Source: a virus
Strand: one strand, 5' to 3'
IMG/VR virus record: IMGVR_UViG_3300037502_001767
Span: 1 to 36,941 of that record
DNA: 36,941 nt
Part shown: positions 2,312-36,941 of the stretch, in pieces
Layout of the letters: each line of letters opens with the position of its first letter
Position numbering within the stretch: position 1 is the first letter of the stretch
Program-made: the position numbers and the translations under genes
Notes under the pieces: generated by a model
What the model saw: only the letters and a program-made list of their open reading frames with translations
Databases searched by the model: none
Told to the model about the DNA's origin: nothing

Positions 2312-2487
2312 GCAGTCCAACCAAACGCGGCGGCGCACGCAAAGGATCCGGGCGAAAGCCCGGATCTGGCAAAGGCCGAAAGGCCATTGCGAAATCAGTT
2401 TCACTCCCAGTCACTGATTGGGAGCGTATCGATCGTGAGCGCGGGAGTATTTCGCGATCGAAATGGATTGGAGAGAGAATTAAATGA
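2308..2487 (+). CDS. Small ribbon-helix-helix-like protein, 59 aa
   Basis: ATG 2308 to TGA 2485-2487 encodes 59 residues. The first 28 are basic and glycine-rich (GGARKGSGRKPGSGKGRK), like an AT-hook or a flexible DNA-binding arm. Then KSVSLPVTDWERIDRERG followed by SISRSKWIGERIK has the strand-helix-helix pattern of MetJ/Arc-type ribbon-helix-helix DNA-binding proteins. It overlaps the large terminase start as ATGA, so the two are probably translationally coupled. It could regulate its operon or bind DNA at packaging; role inferred. Confidence 0.6.
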   Translation: MSSPTKRGGARKGSGRKPGSGKGRKAIAKSVSLPVTDWERIDRERGSISRSKWIGERIK

Positions 2488-5249
2488 GCGCACTCATCAC
2501 CGGATTTTGCAAAGGCATCAAACTCGCGTTCTCGGGAACTATCTTGGACTGGGCAGAAGCTCACGTCCGCTTCCCCAACTCCGACCGCTCAAGCCGCTTC
2601 GACCGCGCCGTCGCGCCGTGGCTCAATGCGCCACTCATTGCGGCCACGGACGACGAGGCAGTAGAGGTTGTATTAAGGGCCTGCACAGGCGGGGGAAAAT
2701 GTCTTGGCCTTGGAACTCCCATCCTAATGTTTGACGGAACGATCAAGCCTGTTGAGCAGGTCGAGGTTGGTGATCAATTGATGGGGCCGGACAGCAAGCC
2801 GAGAAGGGTGCTGTCATTGGCGAGGGGACGAGAGGAAATGTTCAAGATTATCCCGCAAAAGGGTGATCCATACATTGCAAACAAGAGTCACATTCTCTCG
2901 TTAAGAATGACCGGAAATAAATCAAAAACTATTTCTCGCAGGAAATATCACAAGGGCCAGATTGAAAATATTTCGATTGCTGACTACCTTAACGAATCGA
3001 TCAGCTTTAAGCATTGCATGAAGGGCTGGCGGTCTGCCGTGGATTTTGCGCCACAAAAAAAAGCTCATTGGACATTGCCACCATACATCTTGGGCTTATG
3101 GCTGGGTGACGGGAGTAGCGAGACGACTAAATGGTTTGGTATAGATGAAGAAATCTGGAAGGAATTGGAGAATCATGCGTTTTTATGCGGAATGAATTAT
3201 CGCATGGTTAAGCGTAAAGACGCTTGTCCAGAGGTTGCGATAACAAACATCAATGGCAAAGGGAGCAAAAATCCTATTCTTTCAACCTTAAGGGAACTCA
3301 ATTTATTAAAAAATAAACACATTCCCTTGTCATACAAAACCGCGAGCAAAGAAGATCGGCTTGAACTTCTGGCTGGGCTAATCGATACAGATGGTTGTAA
3401 GGGACACAACGGATTTGATTATGTCACAAAAATAGAAAGATTGGCGGACGATATTTGTTTCTTGGCAAGGTCGGTTGGCTTGGCCGCATACAAATCAAAA
3501 TGCAACAAAAAATGTTGCAATAATGGAGTTGTAAAAGAATATTTCAGAATTTCAATTTCTGGGGATTGCGACATGGTGCCATGTCGTTTGGAGCGGAAAA
3601 AAGCATTTCCAAGAAAGCAACTCAAAAATGTTCTAAATGTTGGCTTGCGTTTAGAATCCATAGGGGAGGGCGACTATTATGGATTTCAAATCGATGGCGA
3701 TGGGTTGTTCATGCTGGGTGATTTTACAGTCACGCATAACACGACGTTCCTCGAGACATTAACCTGCTACATCGTCGGCCAGAAGCCGGGGCCAACGCTT
3801 CTTGTTGGCCAGACGGATGACATGATTAAGGACTGGACTGAGAGCAGGCTCATCCCGATCTTCAACGAATGCGAACCAGTGCGCTCACTCTTTCCCGAAG
3901 ATCGCCACGCCATGCGCAAGACGACGATCTTATTCCCTCACATGGCACTCTTCGCTGGGGGCGCAAACATCACCAACCTCCAAGAAAAGTCCATGCGCTA
4001 CTGCGTTGGGGATGAGGTCTGGCGCTGGAAATCTGGGATGATTAAAGAACTCAAAGCTCGGCACCATGACCGATGGAACCGCAAGACGATTCTAGTCTCG
4101 CAGGGATGGGACTCGCCACACGAGGCCGATGGCGAGTGGAACAACGGCACGCAGGAAGTGTGGGGATTTGAATGCCCATCGTGCGGAGCGTGGCAACGCT
4201 ATCTATTCGACGCGATTACCTGGGACAACGAAGCCAAAGGCGAAAGCGGTTGGAAATGGGACGAACTGGAAGCCAGCGTTTCCATGAAATGTCAGCATTG
4301 CACGTCCGTATTTCGCGATACCGCCGCACAAAGGCGACAGCTTGCAGGGCGTGGGAGTTACCGCGCGATGAATCCGCATCCGGTGCGAGGCGTGAGATCA
4401 TTTGAATTTTCCGCACATGCCGTCTGGTGGATTCCGTGGTTCTCGCTTGTTCGCGAATTTCTGGAAGCGAACGAAGCCAAGCACAGCGGAAACGTCGAAC
4501 CACTGAAACAATTCGTCCAAAAGCGCAAGGCAAATCCATGGGTCGAGGAGGTCGTCTCCGACCTTCCCGATGTCTCAACCGCGGATTATGGCAAGGGCGA
4601 ATTTACCGAGGGCCAGAAGATCGATGGCGAGGCATTTCGATTCTTGGCCGTCGACAAACAACGTGATCACTTTTGGGCAATCATTCGTGCCTTCCGGGTC
4701 GATGGATCGTCCAGGCTCATTCACGAGTCGCGACCGCTGACGTGGGAAATGCTGGATGGTCTGGCGACTCAATACAGCATCGCCCCGCGATGTGTGGTGG
4801 TGGACGCTGGCTACGATACGCCGATCGTTTACGAGCAATGCGCCAAGCGTGGCTGGACGGCCTCGCATGGTTCGGGTTCCGATGGATTCTGGACGCAGGA
4901 AGGCGGTCGGCGTATCAAGCGATTTGTTTCTAAAATTGAAGCGGCACAAGCAGGTTCGCATGGGCTCAAATGCGCATACTTCTTCTATTCGAACGAGGGC
5001 ATCAAAGACCGTCTCGCCGCATTGCGCCAGCCCGATGCCGTGCCGATCTGGGAAGTGCCGCGCGATGCCTCCGATGAATACCGGCGACACATGCTCTCCG
5101 AGGCCAAACGCGACGTTGTGAACGCAAAAACGAAGCAGGTCGAGCAGCGATGGGTGCGACTCGGGGGCAAGGCTAACCACCTTTGGGACTGCGAATGCAT
5201 CGCGCTCGCCGCCGCAATGTTGGCGCGGGTTCTGCCGACTGAAATTTGA
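2484..5249 (+). CDS. terL: Terminase large subunit (GpA family) with intein
   Basis: The precursor is 921 residues; without the intein (residues 73-419) the mature protein is 574, near the normal length for lambda gpA relatives. It is the ATP-driven packaging motor and nuclease. Walker A is split: CTGGGK before the intein, TT after. Other marks are VGDEV as Walker B, a zinc ribbon with CPSC (564-567) and CQHC (603-606), and nuclease-type aspartates in FLAVDKQRDHF, VVVDAGYDT and HLWDCECIAL. The start overlaps the upstream RHH gene (ATGA) and the end overlaps the gpW-like gene. Because the intein splits the ATP-binding loop, the motor can work only after splicing. Family assignment is firm from motifs and gene order. 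Confidence 0.93.
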   Translation: MSALITGFCKGIKLAFSGTILDWAEAHVRFPNSDRSSRFDRAVAPWLNAPLIAATDDEAVEVVLRACTGGGKCLGLGTPILMFDGTIKPVEQVEVGDQLMGPDSKPRRVLSLARGREEMFKIIPQKGDPYIANKSHILSLRMTGNKSKTISRRKYHKGQIENISIADYLNESISFKHCMKGWRSAVDFAPQKKAHWTLPPYILGLWLGDGSSETTKWFGIDEEIWKELENHAFLCGMNYRMVKRKDACPEVAITNINGKGSKNPILSTLRELNLLKNKHIPLSYKTASKEDRLELLAGLIDTDGCKGHNGFDYVTKIERLADDICFLARSVGLAAYKSKCNKKCCNNGVVKEYFRISISGDCDMVPCRLERKKAFPRKQLKNVLNVGLRLESIGEGDYYGFQIDGDGLFMLGDFTVTHNTTFLETLTCYIVGQKPGPTLLVGQTDDMIKDWTESRLIPIFNECEPVRSLFPEDRHAMRKTTILFPHMALFAGGANITNLQEKSMRYCVGDEVWRWKSGMIKELKARHHDRWNRKTILVSQGWDSPHEADGEWNNGTQEVWGFECPSCGAWQRYLFDAITWDNEAKGESGWKWDELEASVSMKCQHCTSVFRDTAAQRRQLAGRGSYRAMNPHPVRGVRSFEFSAHAVWWIPWFSLVREFLEANEAKHSGNVEPLKQFVQKRKANPWVEEVVSDLPDVSTADYGKGEFTEGQKIDGEAFRFLAVDKQRDHFWAIIRAFRVDGSSRLIHESRPLTWEMLDGLATQYSIAPRCVVVDAGYDTPIVYEQCAKRGWTASHGSGSDGFWTQEGGRRIKRFVSKIEAAQAGSHGLKCAYFFYSNEGIKDRLAALRQPDAVPIWEVPRDASDEYRRHMLSEAKRDVVNAKTKQVEQRWVRLGGKANHLWDCECIALAAAMLARVLPTEI
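2700..3740 (+). mobile_element. Intein with LAGLIDADG homing endonuclease in terL
   Basis: In-frame insertion of 347 codons between GGGK and TTFLE of the Walker A loop. It begins with Cys (residue 73, CLGLGTPILMFDGTI, block A) and ends with VTHN before Thr (residues 416-419, block G), with GFQIDGDGLFML as block F. These are the splicing residues: Cys1, penultimate His, final Asn and +1 Thr. Block B is represented by GDPYIANKSHILSL. The central part has two LAGLIDADG helices, LGLWLGDG (about 203-210) and LAGLIDTDG (296-304), so it is a full-size intein with a probably active homing endonuclease. The insert is visibly richer in A and T than the flanking exteins, which suggests separate ancestry. 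Confidence 0.93.
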
Positions 5250-12958: not shown

Positions 12959-14665
12959 ATGAAACAACCGAAATTGGTGGCGGCGCTCATCGCCGGGAAT
13001 GAAGAGCACATCATCGAGCGATGCGTTCGCTCGCTCAAAAAATTAGTTGACGACATTGTTGTTGTCCGCGCAATCGGCGGCGCCGATCCTGACAAGACTC
13101 TTGACATAGCGAAGAAGCTGGGATGTCACACGGCAATCTATCGCAACTCGCCCATCTGCGCATCGTGGCCGCACTTGGATCATTTCGCGAATGCGCGGAA
13201 TGTCTCTTTTGAACGCGCGTATGATCTGGCCGGCCAGGATGGCTGGGTCATGTGGGCCGACTGCGACGACATCCTGCATGAGCACATGGTCGAGCCGCAC
13301 GAGAAAGCGATCCGCGAATGCAAGAGCGATTGCCAGTGGATCATGACTGACTATGTCATCCCGGAGCAGAGCCGCCGCGCGCCACGCGAAAGGCTCTTCC
13401 GCTACCGCACCGGATGGTGGACGAGGCCAATCCATGAGAATGTGCATCCCGTCATGACCTGCGGAGAGAAACCGTCCAGCGTCAAAATCTGGACCCGCCG
13501 CGACCTCGAAATCGTCCATGCTCCCGGTTTGCATAAGCGCGGATCAAACGAGCGAAACATGAGGATTCTTGCTTATAACGATTCGTTCACTCCGCATTTC
13601 AAATTCTACCAGCATTACGAGAACTTGATCGTTGGCCAGAACGAGCGTGCAGTGCGCTACGGAAAAGAGGCACTGGCGCTTGATGGTCTTGATGGAGTCC
13701 ACCGCTACGAGGTGCTCCTCAATCTCTCTAATCTGGCGCCACAGCCAAAAATGGCATTTGACCTGGCGCAAGCCGCATTCAAGCTTGATCCCGCAAGACG
13801 CGAGGCTCTCGCTGTGGGCGCGTGCGTCCTGCTCGACATGGGCCGCGTCGATGAGGCTTTGACCGCAATCGAACAAATGGAAGCGATCTCGGCTCCTGCC
13901 TTCCAACAATGGACGCATCGAGGAGAATGGTATGGATGGAAGGCCGCGCAACTCAAAGCGTGGGCGCTTCGCATGGCAGGTCGTGGTGAGGAAGCCGCAG
14001 AGGTCGAATCCGCGGTCTTGAAACAATCACGCAAAGATGGCCTGCCGATCATCTCGCTCATTCATGCCACGCGCGGAAGGCCGATCAAAGCCGTCCAGAC
14101 AATGACGCAATGGTTCCAACGTGCTCGCCATCCGGAGCGTGTTCAGCATATCTTCGCAACCGATGCGGATGACGCAACCGCGCGTCACCTCGAGCGATTC
14201 GGTGGCGTCACACAATCCAATCCCAATGGCTACAGCGTCGGAGCTTGGAATCTCGCCGCGCAATATGCGGCCGGCGACATCATCGTCCAGCTTTCGGACG
14301 ATTGGGAATGCCCTCCGGGATGGGACGAAATGATTGCCGAACGTATGGACATTGAGAAGCCACAGGTGCTCCGAATCTCCGATGGCTACCGCAAAGATGA
14401 TTTACTTTGCATGGCAATCCTCACAGCTCCTTATTATCAGGCTCACGGCCTTTTCGATTCGCGATTCCGCAACGTCTATTCGGACACCGATTTCACATTC
14501 CGCGCTCAAAAGAATGGCGCAATTGTGGACGCGCGGGATGTCACGTTCATCCACCACCATCCGTTCTGGGAGAAGACCGAACTTGATGCCACCTATCAAC
14601 GCGGCAATGACCCTGCCGAATACGAACGCGCGAAAAAACTATTTGAAGAAATCCATGGATTCTGA
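12959..14665 (+). CDS. Bifunctional GT2-type glycosyltransferase, two domains joined by helical repeats
   Basis: 568 residues. The first domain begins LVAALIAGNEEHIIERCVRSL, the usual start of GT2 enzymes, and has the metal/sugar-nucleotide motif WADCDD at 99-104. Residues about 205-355 are helical repeats resembling TPR units (GVHRYEVLLNLSNLA, REALAVGACVLLDMGRVDEALTAI). A second GT-A-like domain starts near 363 (IISLIHATRGRPIKAVQTM) with QLSDDWE at 445-450 and a late FIHHHPFWEK. So two sugar transferases are likely fused. Substrates are unknown; targets could be virion proteins or host surface sugars. The gene follows the capsid terminator. Confidence 0.85.
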   Translation: MKQPKLVAALIAGNEEHIIERCVRSLKKLVDDIVVVRAIGGADPDKTLDIAKKLGCHTAIYRNSPICASWPHLDHFANARNVSFERAYDLAGQDGWVMWADCDDILHEHMVEPHEKAIRECKSDCQWIMTDYVIPEQSRRAPRERLFRYRTGWWTRPIHENVHPVMTCGEKPSSVKIWTRRDLEIVHAPGLHKRGSNERNMRILAYNDSFTPHFKFYQHYENLIVGQNERAVRYGKEALALDGLDGVHRYEVLLNLSNLAPQPKMAFDLAQAAFKLDPARREALAVGACVLLDMGRVDEALTAIEQMEAISAPAFQQWTHRGEWYGWKAAQLKAWALRMAGRGEEAAEVESAVLKQSRKDGLPIISLIHATRGRPIKAVQTMTQWFQRARHPERVQHIFATDADDATARHLERFGGVTQSNPNGYSVGAWNLAAQYAAGDIIVQLSDDWECPPGWDEMIAERMDIEKPQVLRISDGYRKDDLLCMAILTAPYYQAHGLFDSRFRNVYSDTDFTFRAQKNGAIVDARDVTFIHHHPFWEKTELDATYQRGNDPAEYERAKKLFEEIHGF

Positions 14666-16744: not shown

Positions 16745-17605
16745 ATGTCAAATATTCGCATCAAACGCCGCCTCACAGGTAATGCTGGAGCCCCATCGAG
16801 CCTCCTGTCTGGTGAGCTGGCGCATAACTTCGTAGACGAGAAATTGTATCTAGGCTCCGGCAGTGACATCAAAGTCATCGCTGGCCGTGGAGAATTCGTC
16901 GACAAATCCACCGCGCAAACCATCTCCGGGAAAAAGACCTTCTCGGGTGGTATTGACGCTGGCTCACTCGTTCTCGAGAACGTTGCAACGCCTGTTTCCA
17001 ACAGCGATGCCGCCACCAAAGGCTACGTCGACACCGCAATTCAAGGCGTTATTGACAGCGCTCCTGATGCGCTGAACACGCTGAACGAACTCGCCGCCGC
17101 TCTTAACGACGACGCGAACTTCGCCGCCTCTGTTACCTCACTGATCACCGCGAACAGCACTGCCATCAGCGCCATCGACGTCCGTTTGACCAGCGCCGAG
17201 AGCGACATCAGCACCTTGGAATCCGAAATGGATTCGGTTGAAAGCCGTGCCACCTCGCTTGAAGGTCGCGTCTCGACCGCCGAAGATGACATCGCCGACA
17301 TCGAGTCTGCCGCTTCCACTTTGGAAGGACGTGTTTCGACTGCCGAGAGCGACATCACCGCGCTGGAAGGCCGTGCGAGCACGCTTGAGAGCGATCTCTC
17401 GACTGCAGAATCGAACATCAGCACGCTCCAGTCTGACCTGGATACCGCTGAGTCCAACATCTCGACCCTTCAATCCGATCTCGACACTGCTGAATCCAAC
17501 ATCAGCACTCTTCAGAGTGACGTTAGCTCGGCTCAGAGCGACCTTTCGGATCATGAGTCCAGAATCGCCGCTCTTGAGAGCTCGATCGACGGAGGAACGT
17601 TCTAA
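16745..17605 (+). CDS. Tail-fibre-like protein with long coiled coil
   Basis: 286 residues. The N-terminal 45 residues (IKRRLTGNAGAPSSLLSGELAHNF, then EKLYLGSG) are a domain seen at the start of many phage fibres and hyaluronidase-type proteins. Next come TAQTISGKKTFSGG and ATKGYVDTAI, common fibre segments. Residues about 140-280 are an almost perfect coiled coil of repeated units such as STLQSDLDTAESNI (three near-identical copies around nt 17410-17520), typical of a trimeric stalk. The protein ends soon after the stalk, with no receptor-binding tip visible, so it may be a shaft that other proteins complete. Confidence 0.7.
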   Translation: MSNIRIKRRLTGNAGAPSSLLSGELAHNFVDEKLYLGSGSDIKVIAGRGEFVDKSTAQTISGKKTFSGGIDAGSLVLENVATPVSNSDAATKGYVDTAIQGVIDSAPDALNTLNELAAALNDDANFAASVTSLITANSTAISAIDVRLTSAESDISTLESEMDSVESRATSLEGRVSTAEDDIADIESAASTLEGRVSTAESDITALEGRASTLESDLSTAESNISTLQSDLDTAESNISTLQSDLDTAESNISTLQSDVSSAQSDLSDHESRIAALESSIDGGTF

Positions 17606-28721: not shown

Positions 28722-28924
28722 CTCGCAATCAAGCCATGGCGGCAATCCGCAAAATTCTCGTTGACAATTTCGACACGGGCTTTGCAATCGCCAGTTGGGA
28801 ACAAGGCGGGACCACGTATCACATGGAAGTCAAATTTGGCAACCATTACGCCGCCGAAAATCTCGCAGATCGTGCAACCGAAATCCTGTTCCCCCCGGAA
28901 GAGGAAGAAACCGAAAACGCATGA
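28718..28924 (+). CDS. Small hypothetical protein, 68 aa
   Basis: ATG 28718 overlaps the endolysin stop (ATGA). Sequence MTRNQAMAAIRKILVDNFDTGFAIASWEQGG, then TYHMEVKFGNHYAAENLADRATEILFPPEEEETENA. A helix, strands and an acidic end. No known family. Its stop overlaps the metallophosphoesterase start. Position between lysis and the phosphatase gene gives no clear role. Confidence 0.5.
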   Translation: MTRNQAMAAIRKILVDNFDTGFAIASWEQGGTTYHMEVKFGNHYAAENLADRATEILFPPEEEETENA

Positions 28925-29907
28925 AAAAGACACTCAAGGAAGTCGTGACCGCTACGCAGGTCACAACCGCACAGAACGAGGCCGCGCAGGCTCGCGCTCA
29001 ATTAGAAGCCGAGCGTAAGGCGCATTCAGAAACCGTCCGCGCACTCGAACGTGTGCGGTTTGCAAAGCCACCGAAGAAGATCACGCCAACCACCGGGAAG
29101 GCTGGCACTGGCGACATTGTCGAGGTGATCTTCTCGGACGTTCACGGAAACAAGCACGATCCAGCTGCGATGGCGGCATTCCTCGGTGACCTCAAAACGC
29201 TCAAGCCAGATCGGCTTATCATCGGCGGCGACTTTATTGATTGCGGCGGGTTCTTGGCCGAACATCACACGCTCGGCTATGTCGCCGAATCCGAGGATTC
29301 CTACGAAGACGACGTCGCCGTCTCAAATTATTTGCTTGATCAAATTCTTGATGCGGCATCACCGAACGAGGTGCACTACGTCGAAGGCAACCATGAATGG
29401 CGTGTGGAACGCTGGGCGCTTACTCAGCGCCTTGCACACCACAAAGACACTGATCTTCTTCGTCGCACATTCTGCCCGGAGCACGTCTTAAGGCTCGCCG
29501 ATCGTGGGATTAAATATTACCATCAGGGCAAAACCCATGGCGACTGTGACACTCCCGGCTGGGTAAAAATGGACCGCGTCTTTTTCGTCCACAAAATCAG
29601 CAATGCTCGTGATGCCGCCGGTCAAGCGATGGCGAAAGCCGCTGGCAACATTGTTTTCTTTGACACTCACCGCGCTGCATTCAAACCAATGCACCTGCCA
29701 GGCGTCGGTTTGATCTCCGCTTGGAACCCCGGCTGTCTTTGCAAGCGCCAGCCGCTTTATGCCAACACTCGCCCGACCGAGTGGACGCACGGCTATCTCG
29801 TGCGCTTCATCAGCCGCAAGACTGGAAACTTCCAGATGGTGAATGTCACCATTAACGAAGGCGTCAGCTACGCCTCACTCCTCCTCAAACCTAAAACAAA
29901 TGAATAA
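28921..29907 (+). CDS. Calcineurin-like metallophosphoesterase
   Basis: 328 residues from ATG 28921 (ATGA overlap). After a helical N-terminus (VTTAQNEAAQARAQLEAERKA) come the phosphoesterase motifs: FSDVHGNKHD (Asp73, His75), GGDFID (Asp104), and EGNHEW (Asn157, His158), followed by candidates FVHKIS and FFDTHRA. The usual last motif GHTH is replaced by DTHR, so metal binding may be altered. Such enzymes hydrolyse phosphate esters, including nucleic acids or nucleotides. It stands between the lysis block and the replication block. The substrate is unknown. Confidence 0.8.
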   Translation: MKKTLKEVVTATQVTTAQNEAAQARAQLEAERKAHSETVRALERVRFAKPPKKITPTTGKAGTGDIVEVIFSDVHGNKHDPAAMAAFLGDLKTLKPDRLIIGGDFIDCGGFLAEHHTLGYVAESEDSYEDDVAVSNYLLDQILDAASPNEVHYVEGNHEWRVERWALTQRLAHHKDTDLLRRTFCPEHVLRLADRGIKYYHQGKTHGDCDTPGWVKMDRVFFVHKISNARDAAGQAMAKAAGNIVFFDTHRAAFKPMHLPGVGLISAWNPGCLCKRQPLYANTRPTEWTHGYLVRFISRKTGNFQMVNVTINEGVSYASLLLKPKTNE

Positions 29908-33896: not shown

Positions 33897-34364
33897 ATGA
33901 ACTACGACGAATACATCAGCTTTGAGCATCAAGGATTCCCGGTCGCCATAATGCCCGACCACCAGGATGACTGCGAACGCTGGCACTATGCTATAAAGAT
34001 CGATCATAAATGGTATGATGTGGACTATGGTGCCTTAAGTTTCGATAAAGTAGCGGCGGATAAAGTCATTGCCAAAGTCACAAAACAATTGCTTGAAGAC
34101 TATCGCAAACGCACCGACGAATTGTTTCGCGAGCGCGACGAGGCGAGGGAAGATGCGGAGCATTGGAAAATCGAGTATGAAATCATTGAGGCGCGACTTT
34201 GCGGAGTAAAACATGAAAGAGATAATGGGATTGTTTCCCCGCGCGAAATCATCCCCAAGCTGCTCAAATTAGTAGAGCGAGCAATCGATGATTTGGGTTG
34301 GTTTAGCGAAACAGCATCGCAACGATTGCAAGAAGAATTACACAAGCAACAAAATAATCGTTGA
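33897..34364 (+). CDS. Hypothetical protein with coiled coil, 155 aa
   Basis: 155 residues. The first 60 look like a small alpha/beta domain (YISFEHQGFPVAIMPDHQDD, HYAIKIDHKWYDVDYGAL), then a long charged coiled coil (LLEDYRKRTDELFRERDEARED) and a helical end (LLKLVERAIDDLGWFSETASQ). I recall no family. It follows the SSB hairpin, and its last codons contain the -35 box of the promoter at 34361. Confidence 0.5.
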   Translation: MNYDEYISFEHQGFPVAIMPDHQDDCERWHYAIKIDHKWYDVDYGALSFDKVAADKVIAKVTKQLLEDYRKRTDELFRERDEAREDAEHWKIEYEIIEARLCGVKHERDNGIVSPREIIPKLLKLVERAIDDLGWFSETASQRLQEELHKQQNNR

Positions 34365-34388
34365 CAAAATAAACACTCAACGCAGGAT
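34361..34388 (+). promoter_or_regulatory. Promoter candidate for primase-helicase operon
   Basis: TTGACA, a perfect -35 box, lies at 34361-34366 and CAGGAT at 34383-34388 after 16 bases gives three of six -10 bases. Transcription would begin near 34395, right at the first hairpin of the leader RNA at 34393-34501. The weak -10 leaves this open. Confidence 0.45.
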
Positions 34389-34392
34389 TTCA

Positions 34393-34501
34393 ATTGGCCA
34401 TGAGAAAGCCAATAACTATGCTTAAACAAATTTCCCCTTCGTGCGCACCAGAGGCTTCGCATGGCCTAATTTCTCATCTGGGGCGGCACGAAGGGTTTTT
34501 T
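34393..34501 (+). ncRNA. Structured leader with terminator and possible pseudoknot
   Basis: Hairpin P1 pairs ATTGGC (34393-34398) with GCCAAT (34408-34413) around a 9-base loop. Loop bases ATGAGAAA (34400-34407) are fully complementary to TTTCTCAT (34470-34477) downstream. P2 pairs CCCTTCGTGC (34435-34444) with GCACGAAGGG (34486-34495), followed by six T: a good terminator stem, with an inner CCAGA/TCTGG stem. The T run ends five bases before ATG 34507, and the only Shine-Dalgarno-like bases, GAAGGG, lie in the P2 stem. So this looks like an attenuator or a short regulatory RNA. Fold inferred by eye. Confidence 0.55.
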
Positions 34502-34506
34502 CAACT

Positions 34507-34752
34507 ATGGAACTTCCCGATCACGCCCTGCAAGGGCACGTCATTCGGGCCTTCAGATGCTCCCAACGAAATGGTGGAATCGACAGGCTCGATATAGCTC
34601 AACAACTCCTTCCTCAAGGAGCTCATCCAACATACTGGCAAGCGGCTAAAAAGCTCGCCGACCACGCACTCGATCACATGGCCATGCAAGGCCGTGTTTT
34701 CAAGGACACATATGGATGGTGGTATCTTCGCGACCAGGGGGGATGGGAATGA
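34507..34752 (+). CDS. Small protein preceding primase-helicase, 81 aa
   Basis: 81 residues from ATG 34507, directly after the leader terminator; I prefer it to earlier starts because those lie inside the leader hairpins. Sequence MELPDHALQGHVIRAFRCSQRNGGIDRLDIAQQLLP and ADHALDHMAMQGRVFKDTYGWWYLRD gives a helix-turn-helix-like arrangement with a final beta hairpin, a small winged-helix type. It may bind DNA near the origin. Its stop overlaps the primase-helicase start (ATGA). Confidence 0.55.
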   Translation: MELPDHALQGHVIRAFRCSQRNGGIDRLDIAQQLLPQGAHPTYWQAAKKLADHALDHMAMQGRVFKDTYGWWYLRDQGGWE

Positions 34753-36692
34753 ATCTCGAACTTGCACGTCAGAGGCTGCCCCTCCCGGAGCTCATGCATC
34801 GCATGGGCCTTGGAGATCACGCCAAACGCAACGCCAAATCGCCATTCCGCGAAGAGCGCAATCCTTCCTTTGGCATTTTTGAAAACAATGGGCGCTGGCG
34901 CTGGAAAGACCATGGCACCGGCGAAGGCGGCGATGAGGTGGATTTTATTGCCAAGCTAAATAATCAATCCAATGCCCAAGCAATCGCCACCTACTGCGAC
35001 TTGGCTGGTGTGCGACAAGACAATCGTCAATCGCAACCAGTCTACAAGCTGAATGGCAAAAGCGATTGGTCAAAATATCGCAATGCCGCCAATGATGCAT
35101 TCATCGAGCGACTGGCAACAATGCGCGGCATCTCGGCAAATATCCTGCGCGATGCTCGAGACCTTGACATTTTGGGCGCAAGCAATGGCCAGCCAGCATT
35201 CCGATGCGGTCATGGCGCACATGTTCGCTGTGACGATGGTCGTTGGAGATTTGAACCCAAGGGCACCCAGGTTGAACCTCTGACAATGGGCGACCCCAAC
35301 TCTGTCAAGGTTTTCTTCTTCGAGTCACAATGGGACATGCTCGCTATAGCGGACAAACTTGGTGATGAGTGGAAATCTGTATTTTGGGTGGCCTCACGCG
35401 GCGCAAGCAATGGAAAGGTAATTGGAGCCTTCGCAGAAGGCAAAAAGGTCTATGCATTTCCGCAAAACGATCAGCCCAAAAACGGAAAAATCCCATCCGA
35501 ACAATGGATGCAGGACGCCACGAATGCGTGCAATAAAAGCATTCTGCGCGTCCGGACGCCTGAAAAATACAAGGATGCTAACGACTGGGTAAAGAGCGGA
35601 GAATGCAGCAAGAGGCTGGTCATTGCGGCCATAAATGACGCTAACGATCCAGCCATGGTAGGCGTGGAGATTCATTCATTCAATGAGCTATTCCAGTTTA
35701 CACCACAAGATGACAATACTGTCCTTCTTGGGGATCGTTGGGTCTGCCAAGGCGGGCAGCTTCTTATTGTTGGTCAATCTGGCGTCGGGAAATCGTCCTT
35801 GACAGTTCAAGCTTCAATGATGTGGGCGCTGGGCCTTCCATTCTTTGGAATCAAGCCAAGAAGGCCACTCAAAAGCCTATTCATCCAAGCCGAGAATGAT
35901 GCCGGTGACATGGCTGAAATTGTTCAAGGTGTCATGAAGCACGTTGTTGCTGTTAGTCGCATGGATCATCGCGAGGCGATCAATACGCTTACAGAAAACA
36001 TCACATTCGCGCGCGTCACATCGCAGACCGGAAAAGAATTTATCGACGTGGTCGACAAGCTCCTTGACAAAAAAGGCGAATGCGACCTCGTCTTCGGAGA
36101 TCCGCTCCTGTCCTACATCGGCGACGATCTCTCCCAGCAATCGGTCGCCAGCACATTCCTGCGCGGATTATGCAATCCCATTGCGTTCCGCCGTAAATTT
36201 GCATGGGTCTGGAGTCACCACACCGGGAAGCCACAAAGCGATAGCAAAGGGCGCTCGCATTGGAATGCGAACGACTATGCTTACGTCGGCCTTGGCTCGT
36301 CTGAATTGACCAACTGGGCTCGAGCAATCGCGGTTCTGCAAACAACGCCTGAAGAAGGAACATTTCGCTTGTTGTTGGCTAAGCGTGGCCGCCGTGCTGG
36401 CGTTCTTGATTTTAATGGTCAACCGACAATTCAGATTGGCCTTAAGCATGCCGACAAGGGCCTCAATTGGGTCGCTTGCGATCTGCCAACAGCCGAAGAT
36501 GCAGAAAAAAAAGCAGGACGATCAAAATCAATTCCCACCGCACTGGAGCCACAAATCATGGCGATATATAATATGCACGAAGAAGGCGCACGTGGTGTCT
36601 ACTCAAAAATCAAGAAGGACCTTAATCTCTCTTGTTGTGACCAAACAATTGCCAATTTCATCGCGCAAGCCAAAAAACGACGCGAACCATGA
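34749..36692 (+). CDS. Primase-helicase with degenerate zinc-finger region
   Basis: I place the start at ATG 34749 (647 residues), which overlaps the previous stop and follows an AGGGGGG Shine-Dalgarno. The N-terminal part (SPFREERNPSFGIF then GRWRWKDHGTGEGGDEVDFI) follows the CHC2 primase zinc-finger pattern, but the zinc cysteines are gone. A Toprim-like middle has VFFFESQWDMLAIA and VYAFPQNDQ. The helicase part is RepA/AAA_25-type, with Walker A GQSGVGKSS (Lys348), Walker B DLVFGDPLL (Asp451), and WSHHTGKP. It should prime and unwind phage DNA. It ends at the junction hairpins. Confidence 0.85.
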   Translation: MNLELARQRLPLPELMHRMGLGDHAKRNAKSPFREERNPSFGIFENNGRWRWKDHGTGEGGDEVDFIAKLNNQSNAQAIATYCDLAGVRQDNRQSQPVYKLNGKSDWSKYRNAANDAFIERLATMRGISANILRDARDLDILGASNGQPAFRCGHGAHVRCDDGRWRFEPKGTQVEPLTMGDPNSVKVFFFESQWDMLAIADKLGDEWKSVFWVASRGASNGKVIGAFAEGKKVYAFPQNDQPKNGKIPSEQWMQDATNACNKSILRVRTPEKYKDANDWVKSGECSKRLVIAAINDANDPAMVGVEIHSFNELFQFTPQDDNTVLLGDRWVCQGGQLLIVGQSGVGKSSLTVQASMMWALGLPFFGIKPRRPLKSLFIQAENDAGDMAEIVQGVMKHVVAVSRMDHREAINTLTENITFARVTSQTGKEFIDVVDKLLDKKGECDLVFGDPLLSYIGDDLSQQSVASTFLRGLCNPIAFRRKFAWVWSHHTGKPQSDSKGRSHWNANDYAYVGLGSSELTNWARAIAVLQTTPEEGTFRLLLAKRGRRAGVLDFNGQPTIQIGLKHADKGLNWVACDLPTAEDAEKKAGRSKSIPTALEPQIMAIYNMHEEGARGVYSKIKKDLNLSCCDQTIANFIAQAKKRREP

Positions 36693-36760
36693 ACGCCAAA
36701 AAATCAAAAATCAATTTTTTGGCGTTATGCCAAAAAACTAAAAACCTATTTTTTGGCGTT
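36692..36760. repeat. Two tandem hairpins built from AACGCCAAAAAA
   Basis: Hairpin 1 pairs 36692-36703 with 36715-36726 (12 bp, 11-nt loop). Hairpin 2 pairs 36729-36737 with 36749-36757 (9 bp, extendable by a G-T pair and an A-T pair, again an 11-nt loop). Equal loop lengths and the shared stem sequence make these a repeated unit. They start at the stop codon of the primase-helicase gene and could also stop transcription, but the T run lies inside the stem and not after it. A further CCAAAAAA sits at 36670-36677 inside the end of that gene. Bases 36761-36813 hold only AT-rich DNA with no other feature I can name. Confidence 0.75.
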
Positions 36761-36813
36761 GCCCCAAAATCTATATACTAAAATCATCTTTTTATATTAT
36801 CTAAAACCCTATT

Positions 36814-36941
36814 ATGAAACACATTTACACAATGCTACCAACGCCACCCATAAACGCCAAAAAATTGATTTTTTGGAATTTTTTATTTTTTGGAGAAACG
36901 CCAAAAAATAACGCCAAAAAACCCCCCCTTAAAGGGGGGGG
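36814..36941 (+). CDS. Possible small ORF crossing the circle junction (5' part)
   Basis: First part of the 66-codon frame described at 1-200, with ATG at 36814. It is cut by the end of the window and continues at base 128 on the closed circle. No Shine-Dalgarno; the upstream bases are AT-rich, as at several credible starts in this genome. The codons are dominated by the repeat units, so it may be only a chance frame through the junction repeats. Confidence 0.25.
   Translation, partial: MKHIYTMLPTPPINAKKLIFWNFLFFGETPKNNAKKPPLKGG
36815..36941. repeat. Terminal direct repeat, right copy
   Basis: Exact second copy of bases 1-127. It marks the closing point of a circular (or circularly permuted) genome and should be counted once when the genome is annotated. 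Confidence 0.95.

Follow-up and report, generated by a model that had tools for sequence, protein, structure and literature searches.

A homing intein of the PI-SceI kind predicted in the Walker A motif of a GpA-type phage terminase, with relatives at P-loop motifs of unrelated genes

Inteins have been described in the large terminases of mycobacteriophages, where a survey found them in Terminase_1, Terminase_6-like and one terminase-like family (PMC5050341). The TerL1-a inteins lie between the Lys and the Thr of Walker A (Kelley et al. 2016, PMC5050341), and across the seven TerL intein sites splicing was shown for five, with cleavage shown for TerL1-b and TerL1-c (PMC5050341).

Here, we analysed a viral stretch of 36,941 nucleotides (IMG/VR record IMGVR_UViG_3300037502_001767, called the window below), in which a phage large terminase is likewise split by an intein, after the Lys and before the Thr of Walker A. 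An intein in a terminase P-loop has its precedent in TerL1-a (PMC5050341), and what differs here is the host, which is of the GpA type (PF05876/PF20454), whereas TerL1-a resides in Terminase_1. The mycobacteriophage terminase inteins that we compared, none of them confirmed as TerL1-a, are ~24–27% identical to the window intein; two of these, L208 and L209 (neither confirmed as TerL1-a), fall outside its lineage in the tree, and L208 and L210 start with Ala.

The SF2 helicase P-loop inteins of enterobacterial phages (HelliStehle_Bas95, Shelanagig and other jerseyviruses) belong to the same lineage, with ~45–51% full-length identity and the same GK/T insertion point (the slash marks the intein), although their host is a helicase rather than a terminase. 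The best match among solved structures is PI-SceI, the yeast VMA1 intein, which shares the Hint and two-motif LAGLIDADG architecture but differs in its eukaryotic V-ATPase host gene, its identity of 20–23% (structural alignment) and its larger size (454 aa). No earlier published description of the window intein's lineage was found in a literature search that covered part of the openly available papers.

The split terminase and its intein

The preliminary description of this DNA had claimed an in-frame insert of 347 codons inside Walker A, starting with Cys, ending with His-Asn before Thr, and flanked by GGGK and TT. This was borne out to the base (Table 1): GGGK (2688–2699) directly precedes the insert, which forms precursor residues 73–419, begins with CLGLGTPILMFDG and ends with FTVTHN before TT. 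The flanks join as ...TGGGK/TTFLETL..., giving 574 aa of extein, and the N-extein aligns gap-free with its intein-free relatives L007 and L008.

Table 1. Layout of the terminase precursor gene in the window.
Feature	Position	Strand	Remarks
Large terminase precursor (GpA type) with in-frame intein	2484..5249	+	921 codons + stop
N-extein, 72 aa, ends ...RACTGGGK (Walker A first half)	2484..2699	+	
Intein, 347 aa, class-1-type residues C1, N61xxH64, H346 N347	2700..3740	+	
N-terminal splicing (Hint) region, approximate end	2700..3053	+	Pfam Hom_end_hint and PI-SceI alignment
Block B NKSH	2880..2891	+	N61, H64 invariant, 30 relatives
LAGLIDADG motif 1, LGLWLGDGS	3090..3116	+	D137 invariant
LAGLIDADG motif 2, LLAGLIDTDG	3366..3395	+	D231 invariant
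C-terminal splicing region, approximate start, ends DYYGFQIDGDGLFMLGDFTVTHN	3600..3740	+	
C-extein, 502 aa, starts TT (Walker A remainder), GpA ATPase and nuclease domains	3741..5246	+	

Judged from its sequence, the host protein is a lambda GpA-type large terminase, as had been proposed for the joined extein. Pfam recognised GpA_ATPase (PF05876, 7.8e-24) and GpA_nuclease (PF20454, 1.4e-18) in the exteins, and PHROGs returned phrog_15, terminase large subunit (1.6e-71). The neighbouring genes fit this identity, with a terminase-small-subunit-like ORF upstream and a head-tail adaptor and lambda-family portal (PF05136, 3.3e-50) downstream. Moreover, two PHROGs terminase families extend across the insert, indicating that similar split terminases are already present in that collection. 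Solved structures searched with the C-extein sequence gave no match, and a predicted structure of the intein-free terminase was set aside (mean pLDDT 40).

Sequence comparison and modelling together confirm the insert as a full-length class-1-type intein of the Hom_end_hint (PI-SceI) kind with a predicted LAGLIDADG homing endonuclease domain. Pfam Hom_end_hint (PF05203, 1.4e-16) matched precursor residues 73–145, and a phmmer search of the PDB retrieved PI-SceI at 9.2e-23 in an alignment that takes in the HN end and both LAGLIDADG motifs. An AlphaFold model of the intein, built from 30 relatives, reached a mean pLDDT of 93 and had PI-SceI structures as its top fold matches (E 9.1e-26). C1, N61, H64, D137, D231, H346 and N347 are invariant in the 30 relatives; D137 and D231 are the acidic catalytic residues of the two LAGLIDADG motifs, which are intact as initially read. 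The +1 residue is Thr in the window and S, T or C across the lineage. Block B carries Thr in most inteins and Asn here, and this Asn (N61) is invariant within the lineage. The AT-richness remarked on at the outset also held: the insert has 42.7% GC, the extein 57.0%. Searches of the window with the intein sequence and with the Hom_end_hint family revealed no second intein.

We also looked among relatives for intein-free alleles and for the same 347 residues as a normal domain. We retained the 80 nearest terminase relatives from IMG/VR; the insert is absent from every one of them, and at the insertion point their sequence runs on without a break as GK/TT. That the insert might be an ordinary structural domain of the terminase family, compatible as this is with its being in frame in a wholly open ORF, can thus be practically dismissed, since the intein-free alleles already refute it, the insert carries Hint and LAGLIDADG features with a PI-SceI fold, and the same insert occurs in unrelated proteins.

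Given these residues, the insert should excise itself and ligate its exteins. In the mechanism that we propose, the intein would be translated inside the terminase and cut itself out via Cys1, Asn347 and Thr+1, and splicing would join GGGK to TT, restoring Walker A. The LAGLIDADG domain is predicted to cleave intein-free terminase alleles, whose repair would then copy the intein in. The endonuclease region shows an omega of 0.14 in the L002-L003 pair, which indicates purifying selection and a maintained domain.

From its position, the unspliced precursor would not bind ATP, so packaging would wait for splicing and the packaging ATPase would be active only afterwards; such gating is a reasonable inference, and the RadA P-loop intein is cited as disrupting ATPase function (PMC6195587). 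The preliminary description went further and suggested a timer, that is, a regulatory switch acting on packaging through conditional splicing. This we regard as very unlikely: the position in Walker A, the report that in Mycobacterium smegmatis the P-loop intein of DnaB splices conditionally (PMC6195587), and an extein Cys at -6 with a KCNKKCC stretch in the intein would agree with it, but reporter assays showed ready splicing of five terminase inteins from mycobacteriophages (PMC5050341) and the nearest phages manage without the intein.

Empty alleles, a sister phage and probable lateral arrival

The closest relatives, L007 and L008, are intein-free and have exteins 98% identical to the window's; compared separately, the window exteins are 98–99% identical to those of L008. 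L008 lies on a sister contig of 37.7 kb (G001), most of which is collinear with the window, at 84–98% nucleotide identity per segment (84–93% in most), and in which no related intein was found. Only L002 and L003 were found to carry this insert in their terminase gene, with 78–80% identity. Between the window and L002, identity is 80% for the intein, 71% for the C-extein and 67% for the N-extein, which argues against plain descent, as an intein is not expected to be the best conserved part.

Moreover, the window and L008 diverge at 2.2 times the local nucleotide mean from -22 to +38 of the site, a ratio that 0.35% of 1,990 non-independent comparisons between empty alleles match or exceed; this interval was picked after viewing the divergence profile, and a symmetric ±30 gives 1.5%. 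Such a rise is suggestive of co-conversion, in which flanking DNA would have arrived with the intein, a modest signal from one phage pair. In the haloarchaeal MCM, a flanking Pro was co-converted to Ser during intein invasion (PMC10643990). Residue -6 is Cys in the window, Ser in L002 and L003, and Pro in L007, L008 and most empty alleles; helicase inteins of the lineage tolerate Pro at this position, so these residues do not point to a required change at -6.

Together, the mismatch of identities and the raised divergence at the site are suggestive of lateral arrival of the intein in the window's terminase lineage. We consider it unlikely that an old ancestral intein of the terminase lineage was instead lost by most descendants, with no later transfer to the window's lineage. 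L002 and L003 do carry the intein at the same site and agree with each other in intein (85%) and extein (86%) identity, as such an ancestry would have it, but the window extein matches an empty allele at 98% identity and that of L002 at 71%, while its intein matches that of L002 at 80%, the sister would need a precise, scarless loss, and the insertion point shows elevated divergence. That the insert is recent, as first suggested, finds partial support. The intein-free sister phage, at ~88–93% nucleotide identity, and the incongruent intein and extein identities speak for it, but two more distant relatives share the insert (78–80%), and low GC alone gives no date. The near-identical empty and occupied terminase pair suits direct homing and packaging assays.

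The lineage across P-loop genes

Relatives were searched by intein sequence alone and were found in viral contigs, bacterial genomes and archaeal genomes; members of the lineage are mostly 35–80% identical. After removal of near-copies and of distant mycobacteriophage and T4-like rows, 88 non-redundant relatives had both junctions readable, and every one is placed at a P-loop or a motif resembling one: exact GK/[ST] in 62, G/[STC]GK in 21 and, on inspection, variants in 5 (SHK/S, GAK/T, LHK/T, SGHS/TGKT and, in L173, an alignment that begins late, ahead of CGKT). The C-exteins of the collected set form 29 sequence clusters, and the hosts comprise ~10 unrelated families, among them SF2 helicases, DnaB, an SNF2-type helicase, ClpB-type AAA, RecD, UvrD, RecA, a UvsX-like recombinase, the T4SS coupling protein (TraG), Terminase_3 and other terminases. 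In Croceicoccus gelatinilyticus (L171), the P-loop of a TraG/VirD4-type coupling protein for type IV secretion carries an intein of this lineage. L182 (2761–4470) has a helicase-like start, the intein and, after SGKSLV, a DUF1643 protein, apparently a helicase whose remainder was lost or that underwent a fusion.

One member, L153 (558–3437), interrupts an S77-type head maturation protease at GDGK/S, with protease matches on both sides of the insert, and all six empty protease relatives (L218–L223) read DGK/S at the insertion point. As this protease is not an ATPase, a P-loop-like string suffices and the host need not be an ATPase.

Trees were built from ~350 columns and are unrooted, with weakly supported deeper forks. 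In a quick tree of 92 rows the host-gene label needs 19 changes, against a minimum of 9, and GpA inteins fall among helicase inteins. In a careful tree of 38 rows the GpA inteins form one clade (support 100/100) and, with the helicase intein L089, a further clade (98/94) nested among helicase inteins; helicase inteins were monophyletic in 0 of 200 bootstrap trees. An AU test rejected their monophyly at p 0.00385, an optimistic value because the choice of the helicase group followed inspection of the first tree. This intermixing of helicase and terminase hosts implies, as far as such trees can tell, that the lineage moved between non-homologous genes. The simpler reading is that the terminase copies would derive from the SF2 helicase P-loop kind of intein; as the root was not inferred, the direction from helicase to terminase is not demonstrated. 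Ectopic movement of inteins to new sites is described as rare, since homing depends on homology on either side of the site (PMC1635734, PMC4071816). A single lineage that recurs at one motif in ~10 unrelated gene families provides a concrete system for testing how inteins change genes.

The best explanation overall is very probably a homing intein of the PI-SceI kind in Walker A, from a lineage that occurs only at GK/[ST] or G/[STC]GK and has moved between genes. How the lineage came to be tied to this motif is a separate matter. The preference could reflect DNA recognition or splicing needs, and the data separate neither. No nucleotide recognition sequence common to the host genes was found beyond the letters imposed by the motif, ACC at +1 being weakly in excess. 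GGAAAA stands at the junction in 3 of 3 GpA intein carriers and in 3 of 79 empty alleles (p 0.0002). As a general required recognition core it was dropped because, of 66 relatives in which a Lys codon occupies the site, only 7 have GGAAAAAC.

We therefore put forward only tentatively, as a possibility, that a homing-intein lineage targets the P-loop-coding motif itself, jumping repeatedly among non-homologous genes (the protease by mimicry) with the terminase as one landing place. There is nearly an even chance that P-loops are shared because such sites tolerate or retain inteins and suit splicing, after old independent captures and with no endonuclease recognition of P-loop-coding DNA. The absence of a strong DNA consensus beyond the motif codons agrees with this, as does the clustering of diverse inteins at P-loops already described (PMC5050341), whereas the use of one splice point by one lineage, and a member in a non-ATPase protease at GDGK/S with empty relatives reading DGK/S, count against it.

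Window ends and other loci

Positions 1–127 and 36815–36941 of the window are identical over 127 bases. They were not accepted as a true terminal repeat, as the ends of the sister contig also match over exactly 127; this length in both contigs fits the assembler overlap of a circular assembly, and the window is probably circular and complete. The primase/helicase region (34128–36941) is 98% identical to the sister contig, against 84–93% in most other segments, and looks like a recent recombination on this comparison. Just upstream of the terminase, 1793–2329 is unaligned with the sister phage and contains a small ORF (2084–2311). The window also holds a glycosyltransferase-like ORF (12959–14665), a metallophosphoesterase-like ORF (28795–29907) and a tail-fibre-like ORF (16745–17605).
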